Source: Pseudomonadota bacterium
GTDB taxonomy: Bacteria > Desulfobacterota > Syntrophia > Syntrophales > JADFWA01
Assembly: GCA_015222855.1 (NCBI GenBank)
Contig: JADFWA010000209.1
Span: 1-15,807 of the forward strand
Length of the DNA stretch: 15,807 nucleotides
Reading direction: 5' to 3'
Part shown: piece after piece, positions 2,771 to 12,181 of the stretch
Position numbering within the stretch: the stretch's first letter is position 1
Layout: each line of letters begins with the position of its first letter
The notes under the pieces: model-generated
What the model saw: the letters and a program-made list of their open reading frames with translations, nothing else
Told to the model about the DNA's origin: nothing
Database searches by the model: none
Made by a program: the position numbers and the translations under genes

Positions 2771-2869
2771 GAATGAAACCAATTGAACTAATAAACCTGT
2801 TCCGCTTTTCTTTCTTTGTGCCTTTGGTACGGGCGTATTGCTATACGCTTGTACATACCTGAGTAGTTA
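2771..2869 (-). repeat. 99-bp stop-codon-anchored intergenic repeat, copy 1 (after ppsA)
   Basis: On the minus strand this begins TAACTACTCAGGTATG, and that first TAA (2869-2867) is the stop codon of ppsA. It continues with GCGTATAGCAATACGC, a 6-bp stem with an AGCA loop, then CCGTACCAAAGGCACAAAG, an A-rich stretch, and TTATTAGTTCAATTGGTTTC. It aligns nearly end to end with 12779-12877 on the opposite strand, with about eight differences and one single-base gap by eye. The hairpin has no T run after it, so it is not a standard terminator. Confidence 0.85.
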
Positions 2870-5278
2870 TCCTATCCCCAGGCTTTTTTCAGCCTCCAGT
2901 ACGTCCAATGTCGTTTTAATAACCGTGTCTGAAGTCAGCGACATGCTGTCTATGCCGCATTCGACCAGGAATCTGGCGAATTCAGGGTAGTCGCTCGGGC
3001 CCTGTCCGCAAATACCGATCTTTTTACCCATCTTTTTAGCCTTGGTGATGGCCATCTTTATCAGGTCGAGAACGGCCTGATTTCTCTCATCAAAGATGTG
3101 TGCGATCTGGGCGGAGTCCCTGTCCAGTCCAAGGGTTAGCTGGGTAAGGTCGTTGGATCCTATAGAAAATCCGTCGAAGATTTTGCCGAATTCTTCTATG
3201 AGGACGACATTGCTCGGGATCTCCACCATCATGTAAATTTCCAGTCCGCCTTCTCCCTGTACCAGTCCATTTTCCGCCATTATCTTGATGACTCTTTCCC
3301 CTTCGCTGACGGTACGGCAGAAGGGAACCATCAATTTGACGTTGGTCAGACCCATTTCATTCCTTACCTTCTTCATGGCCTGACACTCCAGGACGAAGCC
3401 TTCCCTGTAACGATCATCATAGTAGCGTGATGCCCCCCGGAAACCGATCATCGGGTTTTCTTCATCTTCCTCAAAATAGATGCCGCCGATGAGGTTTGCG
3501 TATTCGTTGCTCTTGAAGTCACTCATCCTGACGATGACGTCATTGGGATAAAAGGACGCCCCTATCTTTGCCACGCCCTGGGCCAGTTTATCCACGAAGA
3601 AGTCGCCCTTATTGTCATATCCCTTTGTCAGAACCTCTATCTCCTTTTTGACATCAATATCCGTGACCTTGTCAAATTGAATGAGGGCCATCGGGTGAAT
3701 CCTGATGTAATTGTTGATTATAAATTCCAGTCTGGCAAGGCCGACACCGTCATTGGGGATGCCGGCAAGGTCAAAGGCTACCTCCGGGTTTCCCACATTC
3801 ATCATGATATCGGTTTTTGGTCTCTCCATGTTTTCCAGGTTAACCCTCTGGATGTCATATTTTAAAATGCCTTCGTAGACGTTTCCAACCTCCCCTTCGG
3901 CGCAGGATACCGTAGCCTCACTTACACCCTGGAGCTTCTCCGTGCAATTTCCGGTGCCGACAATGCAGGGAACGCCCAGTTCACGGCTGACGATGGCGGC
4001 ATGGCAGGTTCTTCCTCCCTTGTTGGTTACGATGGCGGCGGCGATCTTCATTATCGGTTCCCAGTCGGGATCCGTCATATCGGTAACAAGTATCTCCCCC
4101 TTTTTGAAGTTTTTGATTTCGTCGACAGTTTCTGTGATATGGACAGGGCCGGCGCCGATTTTTGCCCCGACACTCGTTCCGGAAACAAGGGGCGTTTTTT
4201 CTTCAAGAAGTACATAGCTTTCCAGGACATTTGCGTCCTTTTGTGATTGGACGGTTTCAGGCCTTGCCTGGAGAATAAAGAGTTCGCCTGTCTCTCCGTC
4301 TTTCCCCCATTCGACATCCATCGGTTTGAAAAAGCCCGCCTCTTCCGAGTAGTGATCTTCTATAATCATCGTCCAGCGTCCCAGGGTCAGGATTTCATCC
4401 TCTGTCAGGCAGAAGCGTACTCTATCCTCTGCGGGAACGGGGATGGTTTCCGTTGTCTCGCTTTCCATGCCGGAGGCATAGACCATCTTTACTTCCTTTG
4501 ATCCCAATTTTTTCTGGACTATCGGTCTGTATCCGTTTTTAAGTGTAGGTTTGAAGACGTAAAATTCATCCGGGTTTACCGTTCCCTGGACAATTGTTTC
4601 ACCGAGGCCGTAAGAGGCGGTGATCAGGACCGCATCCTTGAATCCCGTTTCAGTATCAATGGAGAATGTGACACCCGAGGCGCCCAGATCGGAACGCACC
4701 ATTTTCTGGACACCTATGGAAAGGGCTATGGATAGATGATCAAACCCCTTGTCCACTCTGTATGAGATAGCCCTGTTGGTGAAGAGGGAGGCGAAGCATT
4801 TTTTGCAGGAATCGATGATGGCTTCTTCGCCTTTCACATTGAGGAAGGTCTCCTGCTGGCCTGCAAAGCTTGCGTCGGGCAGGTCCTCAGCGGTTGCCGA
4901 GCTTCTTACCGCCACGGCAATATTTTCCTCATATTCTTCACACAGTTTACGGTATGCCTTTATTATTTCATCCTTGAGGTCATCCGGAAATTCGGCGTTG
5001 TAGATTAAAGAACGGAGCTTGCTTCCCCTCTCGCTTAAGTTATCCATGTCATGGGTATCCAGATCGGAGAGAATTTTTTTCATTTCTTCGATAATGCCTG
5101 TAGATTCCAATAGATATCTGTAAGCATGGGCCGTCACGGCAAATCCATCAGGGACATCGATTCCCTTGCTCTGAAGTTCCCTTCTCATTTCACCCAGGGA
5201 GGCGTTTTTCCCTCCGACCTGAGGGATGTCACCCAACTCTATTTCATCAAACCACAGTATCAGTTTATTGTCTTTCAT
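2867..5278 (-). CDS. ppsA: Phosphoenolpyruvate synthase (pyruvate, water dikinase)
   Basis: Cytoplasmic enzyme converting pyruvate + ATP + H2O to phosphoenolpyruvate + AMP + phosphate, the entry step of gluconeogenesis from pyruvate. The 803-aa length is usual for PpsA. Residues 1-345 form the ATP-grasp nucleotide-binding domain (VGGKNASLGEM at 21-31, AVRSSATAEDLPDASFAGQQ at 123-142). Residues about 385-475 are the swivelling phosphohistidine domain, with catalytic His426 in TNKGGRTCHAAIVSRELGVP. The C-terminal pyruvate-binding TIM barrel (about 490-800) carries GFRGASRYYD (612-621), SIGSNDLTQLTLGLDRD (706-721) and the Cys757 acid/base site in GICGQGPSDYPEFA. Its ending (GIDSMSLTSD) favours PEP synthase over pyruvate phosphate dikinase. 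The start is secured by AGGAGG at 5290-5285, six bases before the ATG. It is a single-gene unit facing the SpoIID-domain gene; its TAA stop is the first codon of a repeat. Confidence 0.96.
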   Translation of the reverse strand: MKDNKLILWFDEIELGDIPQVGGKNASLGEMRRELQSKGIDVPDGFAVTAHAYRYLLESTGIIEEMKKILSDLDTHDMDNLSERGSKLRSLIYNAEFPDDLKDEIIKAYRKLCEEYEENIAVAVRSSATAEDLPDASFAGQQETFLNVKGEEAIIDSCKKCFASLFTNRAISYRVDKGFDHLSIALSIGVQKMVRSDLGASGVTFSIDTETGFKDAVLITASYGLGETIVQGTVNPDEFYVFKPTLKNGYRPIVQKKLGSKEVKMVYASGMESETTETIPVPAEDRVRFCLTEDEILTLGRWTMIIEDHYSEEAGFFKPMDVEWGKDGETGELFILQARPETVQSQKDANVLESYVLLEEKTPLVSGTSVGAKIGAGPVHITETVDEIKNFKKGEILVTDMTDPDWEPIMKIAAAIVTNKGGRTCHAAIVSRELGVPCIVGTGNCTEKLQGVSEATVSCAEGEVGNVYEGILKYDIQRVNLENMERPKTDIMMNVGNPEVAFDLAGIPNDGVGLARLEFIINNYIRIHPMALIQFDKVTDIDVKKEIEVLTKGYDNKGDFFVDKLAQGVAKIGASFYPNDVIVRMSDFKSNEYANLIGGIYFEEDEENPMIGFRGASRYYDDRYREGFVLECQAMKKVRNEMGLTNVKLMVPFCRTVSEGERVIKIMAENGLVQGEGGLEIYMMVEIPSNVVLIEEFGKIFDGFSIGSNDLTQLTLGLDRDSAQIAHIFDERNQAVLDLIKMAITKAKKMGKKIGICGQGPSDYPEFARFLVECGIDSMSLTSDTVIKTTLDVLEAEKSLGIG

Positions 5279-6937: not shown

Positions 6938-7315
6938 CTATCCCAGAAAATAGCTCATGAAGGGGTTTGCGTAGATAAGAATCATTGATATGACCAGACC
7001 ATATATTGCCACAGATTCCGCCATGGCCAGACCTATAATCATGGTCATCATTATCTTTGCCTGAGCCCCTGGGTTCCTCCCGACCGCCCCGGTCGCACCG
7101 TTGATCGCGGCACCCATTCCTATACCCACACCACAGCCTGCCACTCCTATGGATAAGGCTGCTCCGATCATGGCTGCAAGGGCAAAAAGAGCCTTTGGAT
7201 ATGAATCTCCCGCCGTCGGAAGCACCTCTGCAGAGAAGGCCACTGGTGAAACTAATAACAACGTAGCCGCTGTTACTAAGAGGATTAATAACACTTTTCT
7301 AATTTTCTGCCACAT
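6938..7315 (-). CDS. atpE: F-type ATP synthase subunit c, probably proton-type, with N-terminal signal sequence
   Basis: Monomer of the membrane rotor ring of FoF1 ATP synthase. The 125-aa product has a signal-like N-terminus (residues 1-29: WQKIRK, then LLILLVTAATLLLVSPVAFSA) and then the two-helix hairpin. Helix 1 is the glycine-rich AGCGVGIGMGAA (59-70), the polar loop is GRNPGAQ (79-85), and helix 2 has GLAMAESVAIYGLVIS with ion-binding Glu100. Compared with sodium-type c subunits of the Ilyobacter kind, Met67 stands where the ligand Gln sits and Val102 where Thr sits, while Ser101 and Tyr105 are kept; loss of Gln and Thr favours protons. AAGGAG at 7329-7324 lies 8 bases before the ATG. 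No atpB, atpI or F1 genes are adjacent; the next gene on this strand is the Cache protein. A sigma-54 promoter lies upstream. Confidence 0.94.
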   Translation of the reverse strand: MWQKIRKVLLILLVTAATLLLVSPVAFSAEVLPTAGDSYPKALFALAAMIGAALSIGVAGCGVGIGMGAAINGATGAVGRNPGAQAKIMMTMIIGLAMAESVAIYGLVISMILIYANPFMSYFLG

Positions 7316-7420
7316 TTTTCATTCTCCTTTCACTGTCACTTAGTTTTTTTCATTTCCCTCTCTAATGGCACAAAAAGTACCTTGAGACAAGAGGGAATTT
7401 TTAAGGGCAAAAGGGGCTTT

Positions 7421-7436
7421 TGCAATGGCTGTGCCA
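7421..7436 (-). promoter_or_regulatory. Sigma-54 (RpoN) -24/-12 promoter driving atpE and the Cache gene
   Basis: The minus strand reads TGGCAC (7436-7431), AGCCA (7430-7426), TTGCA (7425-7421), an exact match to the sigma-54 core TGGCAC-N5-TTGCW with correct spacing. Transcription would begin near 7410, giving a leader of about 95 bases to the atpE start. With eleven fixed positions and about 31,600 possible sites on both strands, fewer than 0.01 exact matches are expected by chance. Its place directly before a gene, next to a gene for a sigma-54 activator, strengthens the call. Confidence 0.82.
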
Positions 7437-7548
7437 CTTTATGATGGATAGTGGATTTCTGCCTTTAACATGGCATAAACATTTGTGAATTTTGAATTTT
7501 GGATTCCTGTGCACGATGTTTTCTTGTGAAGATAACGTTTAACGTCTT

Positions 7549-7574
7549 GTTAAATCGCGTTCTCCGGATTTAAC
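7549..7574. promoter_or_regulatory. Dyad suitable as an enhancer site for an NtrC-class activator
   Basis: GTTAAATC (7549-7556) and GATTTAAC (7567-7574) form a perfect 8-bp dyad around a 10-base centre, with a nearby partial repeat (AACGTTTAACG, about 7534-7544). Its near edge is 113 bases upstream of the -24 element on the minus strand, within the usual range for sigma-54 enhancers. That the regulator at 10716-12098 binds here is inference. Confidence 0.45.
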
Positions 7575-7641
7575 GGATTGTGAAATTGCAGGCCATATTT
7601 TTATTGAAATATTTAAACAGGAACGATAGTATCGATATATT

Positions 7642-7717
7642 GGCAAAGGGCAAAGGGCAAAAGGCAAAGGGTGAAAGGCAAAAGGGTGAAAGGGTGAAAG
7701 GTGAAAGGTGAAAGGTA
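7642..7717. repeat. AAAGGGCAAAGGGTGAAAGG purine-rich degenerate tandem repeat
   Basis: About eleven imperfect 6-9 base units of the form AAAGG(G)C or AAAGG(G)TG run in tandem, almost all purine on the plus strand. The same words build one arm of the hairpin at 12109-12181. The tract carries no ORF and lies in the divergent spacer between atpE and the small membrane protein gene. Confidence 0.7.
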
Positions 7718-7766
7718 ATAAGTCCCTTAATTGTAAAGTTCGTGCAAAAATGGCAAAAGAATTTAG

Positions 7767-7870
7767 TTATTCGTAATTCGAATATCGGAAACCGGAAACC
7801 GATTTACGAATAACGATTTACGTTTTACGAATTTCGAGTTTCGATATTCGATTTCCGGTTTATCCGGGTT
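7767..7870. repeat. Mosaic of TTCGTAATTCG and AAACCGGAAA palindromic words
   Basis: The region is built from reused words (CGAATATCG and CGATATTCG, CGATTTACG twice, AAACCGGAAA at 7789-7798 with its exact complement TTTCCGGTTT at 7852-7861). It can fold as a long imperfect hairpin ending just before the ribosome-binding site of the small membrane protein gene. The rest of 7316-7640 shows only the sigma-54 promoter and the dyad listed separately. Confidence 0.6.
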
Positions 7871-7886
7871 AGGAGGGGGTAAAATA

Positions 7887-8060
7887 GTGCAGGAAGTATT
7901 GACCGCTGTAACCTATCTGGTTGTCTGGCTTGTCTGTGGGAAGGTTATCGGTATTGAGAGTGGATTGACCAAGCTTCTTATTTCGTTGGGTGCTGCTGTG
8001 GGTGTTTATGTATTGATGGCCGTTAAGGGACGTAGAGAAAAAAATCAAGAAGAGGAGTGA
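7887..8060 (+). CDS. 57-aa two-helix membrane protein, translationally linked to the kinase gene
   Basis: A GTG at 7887 is preceded by a strong AGGAGGGGG (7871-7879), and the frame runs to TGA at 8058-8060. The 57-residue product starts MQEVLTAVTYLVVWLVC, has two hydrophobic spans (about 5-23 and 27-47) joined by a short IESG turn, and ends in a charged tail GRREKNQEEE. The kinase gene starts 6 bases after the stop, and the GAGGAG that serves the kinase (8052-8057) lies within the last codons of this ORF, so the two are probably translated together. I recognise no family. The small size, two spans and position beside a sensor kinase suggest a modulator or partner of that kinase, which is inference. 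Gene callers with a 60-codon cut-off would miss it. Confidence 0.72.
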   Translation: MQEVLTAVTYLVVWLVCGKVIGIESGLTKLLISLGAAVGVYVLMAVKGRREKNQEEE

Positions 8061-8066
8061 TTAACT

Positions 8067-10703
8067 ATGCGGGAAACCCGGTCCAACGATAAAAAAAAGC
8101 ATTTCAGGATTGATTTCAGGTTTTCCATCTGGTTGGCCACCTCCATTGTTGTTTTGATGATTCTTATGTTTGCTCTGACCATCAATAGTGCAAGGGAAAG
8201 GGATATGGTGGAGCAGTTCAGTAAACAGCAGCTGGCTATTGCCAGAGGAACGGCCGCCGGGATAGAAGAACTCGTTGTTGGTATTGAGAAGAGCATGGTA
8301 ACTCTGTCCAGGCTTCCATGTGTTAAGGGAACCATGCCCGAAGCCACCATCCAGAGCATGAAGGTAATTTATGATGACCTGGAAGGAAGGGTTGAGTTTA
8401 TAGCCGTGGAAAACAAATATGGGGTAATTATAGCCGCTTATCCTCCTTCTCTCCTTAAGGGGATAATGGGCAAGAGTTTCGGGTTTCGCCGCTATTTTCA
8501 GGAGGCAAAGAGAACGGGAAAACCATGTGTAAGCGATCTGGTACTGGTGGGTGGTGAAAAGTATGAAGATGTGGAAAACAGGTTTAAGTCGATAATTGTC
8601 GCCGTTCCCAAATATGATCCAGGCAATGAGTTTTCCGGTGTGGTTCTGGCCGCGCTCTCTTTTTCCACTATCATCGACCGGTACATCAAGCCAATTAAGT
8701 GTGATATGCCGTGCTGTCTCTGGATGGTGGATGATAGCGGCACAATACTTGTCCACCCCGATGCGGAATTTGTGGGCGAGAATGTAGGGATACTCGAAGG
8801 CGCAAAATCTGAGGAAAGAATATCCCTGAAAGATGCGCTGCTGAGAGGGGAAGAGGGATATGGCGAATATATGCTGCTTAAAAAGGATGGCAGGGTTGAA
8901 AAAAGTATTGTGGCCTATGCCCCGATTCACCTGGGTTCGCGGAAGTGGACGATCGTTGCCGGTATTCCTCACGATGCTGCTATTCTGCTTTTGCGCAAGA
9001 CTTTTTTCAATATCATGTTTGTGGCTGCGCTGCTGATTGCAGCGGTTGTTATCGGGAGTATAGCTGTGGTCTATTCCGGGAGGAGACGATTGCGCCTCGA
9101 GGAAGAATTGAGGCACCTCAGGGAAAGGAGCAGTTGGCAGGAAAAGCTTGCCAGGGAAAAGAGGACTATTGAGGGGATCATAGAGGGGTCCCCCATACCG
9201 GCATTTGTTATAGACAGGGAGCACAAGATCATCCTCTGGAACAAGGCCTGTGCGGAGCTGACCGGTTTTGACAGCAAAGACATGATAGGCACGGACAGGC
9301 AGTATGTTCCATTTTATCCTGAAAAAAGGCCGCTAATAGCCGATGTGATTGTTGACAGCGATGTTGAGGGGCTGAAGAAGTATTATGGCAAGAAGAAGAT
9401 ACTGAAATCTACGGTGGTAGAGGACGCCTATGAAGCGAGGGATTTCTTTGAGGACATGGGCGGCATAAAGAGACACCTTTATTTTATGGCGGCCCCGATA
9501 TACGATGAGAATGGGGAGGTCATCGCGGCCATCGAGACACTTCAGGATGTTTCCAGGGAGAGGGAAATGGAGCTTAGCTTGAAAGAGTATGCCGAGTCGC
9601 TCAAGAACGAACTGTATGAGAATGTCAAGCTGCGGGAGAATGTGGAGGGACTTTACAGTTATCTCCAGTCCATATTGGACAGTTCCCCCGATCGGGTATT
9701 TGCCCTCAGCAGTGAAGGTATTATCAATTATGTCAGCCGGGGTATGGGTGAAGGGGCCGAATTTACCACCCACCAGATCAAGGGTAAGCATTTTACGGAA
9801 TTTGTTGCTCCGGAACACAGGGATTTTATGCTTGAAAAATGGGAGGAGATGAAGAAGGGGATATTTAGGCCTTATGAGATTGAGGTGAGAAAAGAGGATG
9901 GTTCGGTGAGAAATTTATTGTTAACCTCCGGGACGATCAGAGGAACTGACCGGTATGTTATTGTTCAGCGGGACGTCACGGAATTTAAGGATCTTGAGAA
10001 GAAGTTCTATGAGAGCCAGAAACTTGCCGCTGTGGGGCAGCTATCAGCCGGTATTGCGCATGAGATCAGAAATCCGCTTTCCTCTATAAAGATGAGTCTG
10101 CAGATTCTGGCAAAACGGTTGAAACCTTCGGGAAATGATTTGAAGAGATTCAATATTGCCGAGAAAGAGGTGGAACACCTGGAGAAACTGGTAAGGGATA
10201 TCCTTATTTTTGCCAGACCTGAGGAACCAAAGATGGAGCTTGCCGATATTAACAAGTCTCTTGAGGACTCTCTGGCAATGGCTGAAAAGGAGATAGCAGA
10301 CAAGAAGATACATGTACATAGTGTATATGACAAAAAGGTACCACTTATAAAGTTTGATCCGGCCATGCTGGAGCAGGCATTTTTAAATATCTACCTCAAT
10401 GCTGTTGATGCGATGGAGTCAAATGGAAAACTTCTGATATCGACGAAATTAATTGAAAATAAGTACGATTACGTTGTTATTGAAATTGAGGATAACGGTT
10501 GTGGTATTGATGATGATGACCTTCACCATATATTCAATCCGTTTTTTACGATGAAGAAAGATGGTACGGGCCTTGGGCTGACCCAGGTTGAGAAGATTGT
10601 TGACCTGCATCGGGGGACGATTGAGATCATAAGCAGGAAGGGGAAAGGAACCAGGATCTGTATGACATTTCCGGTTTCCACCACCGGAACAGAGAAGGGG
10701 TAA
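8067..10703 (+). CDS. Membrane sensor histidine kinase: dCache, two PAS, HisKA, HATPase
   Basis: The 878-aa sensor of a two-component system autophosphorylates on His and passes the phosphate to the regulator encoded 12 bases downstream. Order of parts: first membrane span about 18-39; periplasmic dCache domain about 45-305 (FIAVENKYGVIIAAYPPS, FGFRRYFQEAKRTGKPCVSD, SGVVLAALSFSTIIDRYI, then WMVDDSGTILVHPDAEFVG and YAPIHLGSRKWTIVAGIP); second span about 313-336; coiled coil 340-370; PAS 1 at 370-495 (SPIPAFVIDREHKIILWNKA); coiled coil; PAS 2 at 530-640; HisKA with His665 in LSAGIAHEIRNPLSS; HATPase with N box NIYLNAVDAM (774-783), EDNGCGID (808-815) and FNPFFTMKKDGTGLGLTQ (823-840). There is no receiver domain. 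Its ribosome-binding site lies in the end of the small upstream gene. The Cache domain resembles in type the stand-alone Cache protein encoded divergently. Confidence 0.93.
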   Translation: MRETRSNDKKKHFRIDFRFSIWLATSIVVLMILMFALTINSARERDMVEQFSKQQLAIARGTAAGIEELVVGIEKSMVTLSRLPCVKGTMPEATIQSMKVIYDDLEGRVEFIAVENKYGVIIAAYPPSLLKGIMGKSFGFRRYFQEAKRTGKPCVSDLVLVGGEKYEDVENRFKSIIVAVPKYDPGNEFSGVVLAALSFSTIIDRYIKPIKCDMPCCLWMVDDSGTILVHPDAEFVGENVGILEGAKSEERISLKDALLRGEEGYGEYMLLKKDGRVEKSIVAYAPIHLGSRKWTIVAGIPHDAAILLLRKTFFNIMFVAALLIAAVVIGSIAVVYSGRRRLRLEEELRHLRERSSWQEKLAREKRTIEGIIEGSPIPAFVIDREHKIILWNKACAELTGFDSKDMIGTDRQYVPFYPEKRPLIADVIVDSDVEGLKKYYGKKKILKSTVVEDAYEARDFFEDMGGIKRHLYFMAAPIYDENGEVIAAIETLQDVSREREMELSLKEYAESLKNELYENVKLRENVEGLYSYLQSILDSSPDRVFALSSEGIINYVSRGMGEGAEFTTHQIKGKHFTEFVAPEHRDFMLEKWEEMKKGIFRPYEIEVRKEDGSVRNLLLTSGTIRGTDRYVIVQRDVTEFKDLEKKFYESQKLAAVGQLSAGIAHEIRNPLSSIKMSLQILAKRLKPSGNDLKRFNIAEKEVEHLEKLVRDILIFARPEEPKMELADINKSLEDSLAMAEKEIADKKIHVHSVYDKKVPLIKFDPAMLEQAFLNIYLNAVDAMESNGKLLISTKLIENKYDYVVIEIEDNGCGIDDDDLHHIFNPFFTMKKDGTGLGLTQVEKIVDLHRGTIEIISRKGKGTRICMTFPVSTTGTEKG

Positions 10704-10715
10704 AGGAGTGAAGGC

Positions 10716-12098
10716 ATGCCGAAGATTCTTGTAATTGATGATGATACTTCCATATGCGAGACCCTTGAGCTGTATCTGACCGAAGAGGGGCATGAAGTTC
10801 ATACTGCCCTGACCGGCACCGACGGGTTGAATAAAGCGGTGGAGGTCTTGCCGGATGTCGTAATTCTGGATATAAGGCTTCCCGATATTGACGGTTTTAC
10901 CGTATTGGAAGATCTGAAAGAGGATGGTGAAGAAACCAGGGTGATTATGATTACCGCTCATCATGATATGGATACGACCATCAAGGCCATGAAAGAGGGG
11001 GCCTTTGATTATATCCACAAACCTATTAATATAGATGAGTTGGATATAGCCATTCAGAAGGCGCTCGAAAGCCTTGAAATGGAAAAGAAGATAAATGGTC
11101 TTCTCATGGAGCCTTCGAGGGACTTCAAGGTGGGTGATATTATCGGTAGAGGCAAGGGGATGAGGGAGGTATTTAAGACCATAGGAGTTGTTTCCCAGAG
11201 CAGGACAACGGTGCTTATTCAGGGGGAGAGCGGAACCGGAAAGGAGCTGATTGCCAAGGTTATACATAACAATACATCGAGTGACGAACCCTATATAGCG
11301 GTAAACTGTTCCGCCATTGTGGATACCCTCCTTGAATCGGAGCTCTTCGGTCATGAGAAGGGTTCCTTCACGGGTGCGATAAGCAGGAAATTGGGCAAAT
11401 TTGAGCTTGCCCGTTACGGCACGGTTTTCCTGGATGAGATTAGTGAGATGTCGGTAAATCTGCAAGCCAAACTCCTGAGAGTACTTCAGGAGATGGAATT
11501 TGAGAGGGTTGGCGGTAAGGACAGGGTAAATGTGAATGCGAGGATAATCGCCGCCACCAACAAAAATCTCAAGGAGCTTGTGAGGGAAGGGAAATTCAGG
11601 GATGATCTTTATTATCGCCTGAACATTGTAGCAATAAACATCCCCCCCTTGAGGGAAAGAAGGGAGGATATCCCTTCCCTTGTCGACTATCTCATCAAAA
11701 AGATCAATTATGACCTCCATAAGAAGATTGCCGGCGTGTCCGATGAGATGATGGACATCTTTCTCAAATACGACTGGCCCGGAAATATCAGGGAGCTGGA
11801 AAATCTCCTGGTGAGGGCTGCCGTTGTTACCAAAGGGCAGGTCCTCGGGAGGGGGGATTTCCCGGATCTGCTGGAAAGCTTTGTCAGCGGTGAGGTTCGG
11901 GATAAAGTGCCCGGCGTGGTGGGGGGTGGAGAAGATGAGGATTTTGAATTCCGTACCATTGATGAGATAGAGGAGAGACACATAAGAAATGTAATCGGGA
12001 AGACCGGCAAAAACAAGGGTGAAATCTGTGAAATACTCGGCATCTCCCGTCCCACCCTTGAGAGAAAGCTGGAAAAGTACGGGATTACGTTTGAATAG
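10716..12098 (+). CDS. NtrC-class sigma-54-dependent response regulator
   Basis: The 460-aa transcription activator has three domains. Receiver, 1-120: acidic VIDDDT at 6-11, phosphoacceptor Asp52 in ILDIRLPDIDG, Thr80, Lys102 in HKP. AAA+ ATPase, about 138-375: Walker A GESGTGKE (170-177), sigma-54 contact loop GSFTGA (216-221), Walker B GTVFLDEIS (235-243), RDDLYYRLN (295-303), WPGNIREL (354-361). Fis-type helix-turn-helix, about 418-457: IGKTGKNKGEICEILGISRPTLERKL. The loop carries Ser in place of the second residue of GAFTGA, a known variant that keeps the essential Phe, Thr and Gly. AAGGAG at 10703-10708 lies 7 bases before the ATG and overlaps the kinase stop, so this is its cognate kinase. 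An exact sigma-54 promoter lies in the divergent spacer at 7421-7436 and is the nearest candidate target. Confidence 0.95.
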   Translation: MPKILVIDDDTSICETLELYLTEEGHEVHTALTGTDGLNKAVEVLPDVVILDIRLPDIDGFTVLEDLKEDGEETRVIMITAHHDMDTTIKAMKEGAFDYIHKPINIDELDIAIQKALESLEMEKKINGLLMEPSRDFKVGDIIGRGKGMREVFKTIGVVSQSRTTVLIQGESGTGKELIAKVIHNNTSSDEPYIAVNCSAIVDTLLESELFGHEKGSFTGAISRKLGKFELARYGTVFLDEISEMSVNLQAKLLRVLQEMEFERVGGKDRVNVNARIIAATNKNLKELVREGKFRDDLYYRLNIVAINIPPLRERREDIPSLVDYLIKKINYDLHKKIAGVSDEMMDIFLKYDWPGNIRELENLLVRAAVVTKGQVLGRGDFPDLLESFVSGEVRDKVPGVVGGGEDEDFEFRTIDEIEERHIRNVIGKTGKNKGEICEILGISRPTLERKLEKYGITFE

Positions 12099-12108
12099 TA
12101 AAGGCCAA

Positions 12109-12181
12109 AGGTCAAAGGTTAAGGGTGAAAGGCTAAGGGCTAAGGGGAAACCTTTAACCTTTTACCCTTAACCTTTGACCT
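12109..12181. repeat. 31-bp imperfect hairpin of AAAGGTTAAGGGT words
   Basis: 12109-12139 (starting AGGTCAAAGGTTAAGGGT) is complementary to 12151-12181 (ending ACCCTTAACCTTTGACCT) with about four mismatches and an 11-base loop. It fills the gap between the response regulator gene and engB and uses the same words as 7642-7717. The long stem could stop transcription, but only GATTT follows, so a terminator role is unproven. Confidence 0.75.

Follow-up and report, generated by a model that had tools for sequence, protein, structure and literature searches.

Why does a gene for the c subunit of an F-type ATP synthase stand apart, behind a sigma-54 promoter and back to back with a two-component system? 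The number of c subunits in the rotor sets the number of ions needed per ATP, a ratio that is usually taken as fixed for each species, and syntrophic bacteria live on an energy yield near the smallest that is usable. The locus comes from a draft genome of the Syntrophales (423 contigs, 1.9 Mb, 81% complete), and we call the whole stretch of 15,807 nucleotides that was analysed the window. An initial annotation, made from its letters, had proposed that the two-component system controls atpE and a neighbouring Cache gene. From the comparison described here, we put the probability at roughly 0.7 that a sigma-54 two-component circuit is dedicated to supplying an alternative F-type c subunit together with a Cache membrane protein. 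The finding exceeds the earlier proposal, in that the sequences compared support such a circuit in a large part of the order and also in f52, a second family belonging to the same phylum. No description of this circuit was found by title and abstract in the open-access literature, most subscription journals lying outside that search.

Genes of the locus

The genes listed initially (atpE and a stand-alone Cache gene and, divergently, a small membrane protein, a dCache kinase and a regulator with the GSFTGA loop) are all present by open reading frames and Pfam. The interval given for them, 6938–12098, contains the others but leaves the Cache gene outside. The c-subunit gene, which we call atpE type A or simply A, is at 7315–6938 on the minus strand. 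Its product scores 60.7 bits against the PF00137 cut-off of 24 and has a signal-like N-terminal segment, the ion carboxylate E100 and the polar loop RNP-G. After 44 bp, on the same strand, the Cache gene (6893–5565, minus) encodes a membrane helix, a double Cache domain, a second membrane helix and a conserved acidic tail, and scores 44 bits against the dCache_1 cut-off of 45; the two genes are probably co-transcribed. Further along is a gene of the PEP-utilising (pyruvate dikinase) family (2867–5278, minus). It lies downstream on the same strand in 16 of 36 order loci, and no minus-strand terminator-like site is listed in the window between it and the Cache gene, so that it is a possible third gene of the sigma-54 unit. 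A terminator-like hairpin of 13 pairs stands behind it at 2680–2649.

On the other side, 571 bp from atpE, is a plus-strand gene (7887–8060, GTG start) for a two-helix membrane protein of 57 residues with a conserved IESGL, which gives no match in Pfam or NCBIfam and serves as a marker of the system. It is followed by the sensor histidine kinase (8067–10703, plus; dCache-PAS-PAS-HisKA-HATPase) and the response regulator (10716–12098, plus). The latter has a receiver with the phospho-acceptor D52, an AAA+ domain (PF00158, 223 bits) with GSFTGA at residues 216–221 and a Fis-type HTH (PF02954, 33 bits). In the aligned regulators D52 is found in all 52 rows that have the residue and the conserved K102 in 53 of 53; the loop reads GSFTGA or GAFTGA in 50 of 53 and GSFTSA in the remaining three (G037, G021 and G048), and the recognition helix is nearly invariant. 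Judged by its receiver, AAA+ loop and Fis HTH, the regulator is an NtrC-class sigma-54 activator. Its best NCBIfam match is AtoC and that of the kinase AtoS, but both stay far short of the cut-offs (460 of 714 and 281 of 646 bits, respectively); identification as AtoC was rejected on this ground.

The sigma-54 promoter and its upstream sites

The exact −24/−12 promoter that had been noted before atpE is confirmed at 7436–7421 on the minus strand (TGGCACAGCCATTGCA), with the GG and GC elements at the right spacing and an exact consensus, and it is conserved in A loci. It is the single exact match to TGGCACNNNNNTTGCW in the window; the whole draft has 8 such matches, compared with 0 for the reversed control. 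Promoters and upstream sites were scored in 44 of the 68 genomes with an A gene (the window and 43 others), plus six added later. In 44 of 44 A loci, the window included, a site that scores 17 or more out of 19.5 lies no further than 200 bp from the start codon; 70 of 4400 dinucleotide shuffles reach this level, and none of the 19 loci for other c subunits does (17 B and 2 N-type). The threshold was chosen after sight of the scores and the loci are related, so that the 44 scores are not independent trials. The sites lie 83–159 bp ahead of the start codon. Though some shuffles do reach the threshold, the conservation of the site in 44 of 44 loci, and within this range of distances, refutes the view that it is a chance match, to which we give practically no weight. 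Among the six order loci added later, two (G021 and G048) score 16.5. In f52 the scores are 19.0–19.5 in six of six distinct loci, and the site is also present in G055, G087 and G071. Eight promoters of family f15 lack the usual TTGCA at −12, five of them having CATGCA instead, and several of these eight loci share an alternative upstream stretch of the type CAATCTCAA-ATTAG.

Upstream of the A promoters there is an NtrC-type dyad, TTKAAY-N5-RTTMAA, often as two sites ~30 bp apart. In the window, both read on the minus strand, the proximal predicted enhancer site is TTTAAC-AAGAC-GTTAAA at 7538–7554 (12/12) and the distal one TTTCAC-AATCC-GTTAAA at 7569–7585 (11/12), 31 bp away. A repeat finder independently gave a 21-bp direct repeat at 7538 and 7569 with the same 31-bp spacing (family D3), the dyads themselves being 17 bp long. 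The perfect dyad reported initially, TTAAATC-N10-GATTTAA at 7550–7573, is real as a sequence, but its reading as a single dyad is better replaced by one in which it consists of the inner, facing half-sites of these two NtrC-type sites. The motif was first read by eye from the same sequences and then scored: 12/12 dyads occur in 32 of 44 A loci (19 of 4400 shuffles) and dyads of at least 11/12 in 40 of 44 (270 of 4400 shuffles; 0 of 19 other c loci), and a pair 29–33 bp apart with a summed score of at least 20 is found in 32 of 44 (60 of 4400 shuffles). The 12 loci without a clear pair are eight of f15 (L049, L055, L056, L057, L059, L060, L070 and L073) together with L045, L074, L099 and L100. 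For G048, G021 and G056, relatives of G037 with promoter scores of 16.5, 16.5 and 19.0, the dyads match at 12, 11 and 11 of 12 positions, and five of the six distinct f52 loci have dyads of the type TTGAAC-N5-GTTCAA that match at 11 or 12 of 12 positions. A pair of sites spaced by three turns of the helix, ahead of a sigma-54 promoter, is the classical NtrC enhancer layout. The arrangement thus resembles NtrC/AtoC-class systems in its receiver-AAA+(GSFTGA)-Fis HTH regulator and in tandem dyads that precede the −24/−12 promoter at a spacing of roughly three turns, but differs from them in its predicted target, one rotor subunit of the ATP synthase alone, and in the extra small membrane protein.

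The gene for sigma-54, rpoN, was not found in the window's draft (81% complete). It is present in 16 of 18 other genomes tested, with no match in G013 and G018. Since G001, G002 and G003 have rpoN (the G001 copy being a fragment at a contig end), incompleteness of the draft is the most likely cause of its absence, and is also the most likely cause for a second c gene (B), which was likewise not found in this draft.

A c subunit of its own kind

The gene called atpE initially is indeed a c-subunit gene, but not the ordinary one of an atp operon. When 73 c subunits are placed in a tree, 51 A rows, those of f52 included, fall on one side of a branch with a support of 100/100, in an alignment of only 90 columns in which the window's row is a long branch (0.68). 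The 44 A proteins and 17 B proteins, aligned after removal of unresolved X letters (one row, L092, had one), have no residue in common at positions 44, 47, 49, 83, 90, 93, 99 and 119. Position 83, which follows RNP in the polar loop, is G in all 44 A proteins, whereas all 17 B proteins have E or D, and in the six f52 A loci it is G or A and never E or D. The acidic residue of this loop normally faces the central stalk of the enzyme. At position 99, just before the carboxylate, the A type has A, and B proteins have I or T. Both sets, the 44 A proteins and the B proteins, keep E100, S101 and Y105 throughout, and an A protein added later (L132) has A in place of S101. The product has the PF00137 hairpin with its membrane carboxylate; scored alone, it stays below every NCBIfam c-subunit cut-off listed, reaching 35.5 of 43.95 bits for the equivalog TIGR01260. 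An N-type (Na+) c subunit was considered and rejected, since the loop is RNPG rather than QQP and there is no adjacent atpB. Several of these genomes do carry an N-type gene as an additional c gene; the N-type proteins read have the QQP loop and lie beside their own atpB, whereas A does not.

It had been assumed that F-ATPase genes normally form one operon. That is not the rule in these genomes, where the c genes are separate from atpZ-atpI-atpB. The only PF00119 match of the window's draft, atpB, is on another contig and has no c gene following it; in relatives B too is apart from atpB, by ~3–5 kb in the four loci that have both on the stretch examined. This separation, the residue differences and the clade of its own rule out the window's atpE as an ordinary atpB-linked gene. 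At least one further c-subunit match of any kind, N-type included, is found among the matches listed in 62 of the 68 A genomes, and, as noted, none of the 19 other c loci has the promoter. In G019 a single atpB is accompanied by two c genes, A and B. In G048 and G055 (99–100% complete) there is one atpB and A is the only c gene found, and in G037 the sole other c gene is N-type and lies beside a second atpB. Taken together, these gene counts indicate that two c subunits can be candidates for the same F-type a subunit. By the same counts, A alone seems to serve the ATP synthase in some genomes.

More than one kind of c subunit in one enzyme is known from the mixed c1/c2-c3 ring of Acetobacterium woodii (PDB 4bem, which we take to be this ring). 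There the c genes are in one operon, whereas here the A gene has a predicted regulatory circuit of its own. Compared with the canonical atpE of an atpZ-I-B-E operon, A shares the PF00137 hairpin, the signal-like N-terminus and the E-S-x3-Y ion site, and differs in not being next to atpB, in its own sigma-54 promoter and in the RNP-G loop. Such an atpZ-I-B-E operon, described in Pelobacter carbinolicus (PMC3543383), is found alongside A in the f52 genomes G130 and G362. The same paper ties the ion count per ATP to the number of c subunits and proposes two-component (ColRS) control of the atp operon through ColR-type sites (PMC3543383). The likeness to the present case is two-component control of ATP synthase genes, but the ColR sites stand before a whole operon, and sigma-54, control of a single subunit and a Cache partner are not described there. 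As read from the sequences, then, the c subunit is a PF00137 member with a clade of its own, and its predicted control architecture is different from the one proposed in Pelobacter carbinolicus.

Conservation of the layout

A comparison of related genomes had been suggested as a check, and it gives conserved linkage, promoter and dyads. Gene order was scored in 50 order loci (the 44 and the six later ones), the denominators being loci with enough flank. The Cache gene is just downstream of A in 43 of 49, and the small protein, kinase and regulator are divergent from A in 37 of 50, 37 of 48 and 38 of 47, respectively. All four are in place in 36 of 46 loci. The promoter is there in each of the 44 loci scored for it, most of which also have the dyads. 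The exceptions with regulatory genes elsewhere include G085, G042, G007 and G006. L011 was left out of the counts as it was taken to be a duplicate of L060, the protein being identical. This recurrence across the order and f52 rules out a single-genome oddity.

Co-occurrence was counted in 100 order genomes (68–100% complete), with classes assigned by score among the c-subunit matches listed and typed by hand. Among the matches listed, 68 genomes have A, 65 the Cache gene and 72 a regulator orthologue, whose identity is at least 70% in 66. As raw counts among relatives, again for the matches listed, A and the regulator are both present in 66, A only in 2, the regulator only in 6 and neither in 26; for A and Cache the corresponding counts are 62, 6, 3 and 29. 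The regulator was not found at the threshold used in the A genomes G024 and G058. The six regulator genomes without A among the matches listed include G018, G034 and G035 (95–99% complete). G018 and G034 keep both kinase and regulator, which suggests that the regulator may have targets besides A.

Some genomes have a reduced version of the locus. In G055 and G087 the regulator is directly divergent to atpE(A), with two dyads 30 bp apart between them (12/12 and 12/12 in one, 12/12 and 11/12 in the other); kinase, small protein and Cache were not found on the stretch examined, nor a Cache orthologue in either genome. In the group of G037, which is itself a single contig of 3,179,300 bp, no Cache orthologue was found, and the three genomes read have no kinase beside the regulator; G037 retains the A promoter and a 12/12 dyad. 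In G037, G021 and G048 the regulator orthologue (60–64% identity) lies beside EngB, convergent with atpI-atpB.

Among 395 genomes of the phylum, a close stand-alone Cache protein (at least 54% identity) is found in 14 order genomes, the window's included, and in 8 of f52, in one of which the locus is split over contigs. The small protein is present in 22 of the 395, and these are exactly the 22 genomes with this close A-type Cache. The f52 loci have the same c-Cache and small protein-kinase-regulator genes, divergent in L124 and with the regulatory genes beyond Cache in L125; relatives of the f52 protein bear names that include Desulfomonilia. The initial proposal that the two-component system controls atpE and Cache is thus supported, as far as sequences can do so, by synteny, by conservation of promoter and dyads, by the regulator being present in 66 of the 68 A genomes and by the arrangement in G055 and G087.

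The stand-alone Cache protein

The two membrane helices and the acidic cytoplasmic tail of the Cache protein are conserved, so that it cannot be taken for a broken kinase. The structural model (pLDDT 66) has the dCache fold and matches dCache sensors of kinases and chemoreceptors. As to the ligand, a sequence search of the PDB gave no match and the fold search gave the dCache class only. The similarity to the dCache domain of the neighbouring kinase amounts to only 27% identity over 71 residues (E 0.010). Closer relatives are found elsewhere: in G064 and G088 a Cache domain of 57–60% identity heads a kinase of 1138–1143 residues directly behind a membrane gene, which in G064 is of the Nuo/Mrp type by Pfam and in G088 looks alike by eye. 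In f52 a further c-Cache pair heads RnfA-RnfB-RnfC in three of three loci read. Of the more distant relatives (29–41%), some stand alone, in f52, and others form the sensor portion of proteins that mostly have 700–1075 residues. With its positions beside ATP synthase, Rnf and Nuo/Mrp-type genes, this Cache family thus recurs near ion-translocating machines.

Discussion

From gene order, promoter, dyads, co-occurrence, paralogy and intact residues, all of them read directly in the DNA, we infer the following course of events. The dCache kinase, perhaps with the help of the small membrane protein, would sense a cue in the periplasm and phosphorylate the regulator at D52. The phosphorylated regulator would then bind the tandem dyads ~130–170 bp upstream of the expected start point (centres at ~135 and 166) and open the sigma-54 promoter, so that atpE(A) and Cache, and perhaps the PEP-utilising gene too, are transcribed. 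The A subunit would enter the cell's F-type ATP synthase (F1Fo). Where another c gene is present it would alter the amount or make-up of the c ring, and where there is none it would set the level of the enzyme. The stand-alone Cache protein is probably a second sensor next to the ATP synthase.

One alternative concerns the nature of the A subunit. It might be functionally equal to the other c subunit, so that the circuit raises the supply of c and hence the number of synthases while the kind of ring stays the same. The genomes G048 and G055, where A alone seems to serve the enzyme, fit this, as do the identical core ion-site residues of A and B. However, A and B are told apart at eight aligned positions (44 against 17 proteins), including 83 in the loop and 99, and the six f52 loci keep G or A in the loop; an effect of dosage only is for us plausible but somewhat improbable. 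A second alternative is that A is not part of the ATP synthase at all and forms a separate membrane complex with Cache, as a sensor, channel or anchor. That would suit the loss of the acidic loop residue in A and the recurrence of c-Cache as a two-gene module that also heads rnf operons in f52. It leaves the atpB of G048, G055 and G037 with no other F-type c gene that we could find, and it does not sit well with the retained ion-site residues E, S and Y, so that we think it unlikely.

The remaining alternative concerns the regulator: the promoter would be real but served by another activator, the two-component system having its targets elsewhere and being linked to it only through an old gene order that also involves EngB and, in some genomes, atpZ-atpI-atpB. 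In 9 of 47 order loci the regulator is indeed not beside A, and in G018 and G034 it is present together with the kinase while A was not found among their listed matches. Against this, A and the regulator go together in the listed matches of the 100 order genomes (66/2/6/26), in G055 and G087 it is the regulator that has stayed next to A, and the dyads are kept where a regulator with the near-invariant recognition helix is kept. We consider another activator very improbable. The reading that we prefer therefore stays that of a dedicated circuit for the supply of an alternative c subunit and its Cache partner.

A bolder extension is that the two rotor subunits are interchangeable parts of one enzyme, switched or mixed through a circuit that senses the outside, and that the ions per ATP or the coupling change in this way with the energy supply, as in a change of gear, Cache riding with the alternative ring as an on-site sensor. 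We offer this tentatively and regard it as rather unlikely in this full form. In the same reading the c-Cache module would also have been put at the head of the rnf operons.

The comparison also yields a candidate target gene and DNA site for a two-component system that is widespread in the Syntrophales, and a context for a conserved small membrane protein and for a Cache family beside ATP synthase, Rnf and Nuo/Mrp-type genes. For Syntrophus, a contribution of the ATP synthase to the build-up of ion gradients has been proposed (PMC4992975), and control of the supply or kind of c subunit would be a possible way to tune this. With a c subunit that is separately regulated and widely conserved, and with the parts that would sense the cue named, a rotor change on demand becomes directly testable: cells that live on little energy may adjust the rotor of their ATP synthase to a signal from outside.

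Components of the proposed circuit and their arrangement in related genomes

The small membrane protein of the proposed circuit (7887–8060 in the window), a 57-residue protein of two helices with a conserved IESGL motif, matched nothing in Pfam or NCBIfam searches. It was found in 22 of 395 phylum genomes, the identical 22 that carry the A-type Cache gene, the stand-alone double Cache gene behind the window-type atpE. Between the enhancer and the regulatory genes lie degenerate repeats with a 7-bp period (7642–7862; GGCAAAG/AAAGGGTG, CGATTTA), and similar repeats follow the regulator gene (12100–12181).

At three loci of the Syntrophus-like group (L127, L151 and L152) the AAA+ loop of the regulator orthologue reads GSFTSA, not GSFTGA, and no kinase match adjoins it. 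In genome G006, the c gene of another type found in relatives (B) is followed by the kinase, the regulator and EngB (L097, contig C4), with the A-type c–Cache pair on a different contig. The regulatory genes stand immediately beside atpI–atpB at L066, L076 and L127, and the circuit and the stator genes therefore perhaps once formed a single locus.

Related c-subunit and Cache genes in other settings

The same Cache domain is fused to PAS–GAF–PAS kinases encoded immediately behind a Nuo/Mrp-type membrane gene (L122, 3770–7201; L123, 1673–5089; Pfam was run on L122 only). In f52, a second, more distant family, additional c-subunit and Cache paralogues head an rnfABC operon in the order c–Cache–RnfA–RnfB–RnfC (L137, 5944–10828; L140, 5763–10914; L168, 4229–9160); no sigma-54 site precedes the pair in L137 or L140, the two loci scored. 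Six PF00137 matches fall in one 576-residue open frame, that is, fused c hairpins, at about 5.5–7.2 kb of L146 (genome G362, contig C38); a distinct c gene with one hairpin is also encoded there, next to another atpB. A 326-residue frame on contig C41 of genome G130 holds four PF00137 matches.
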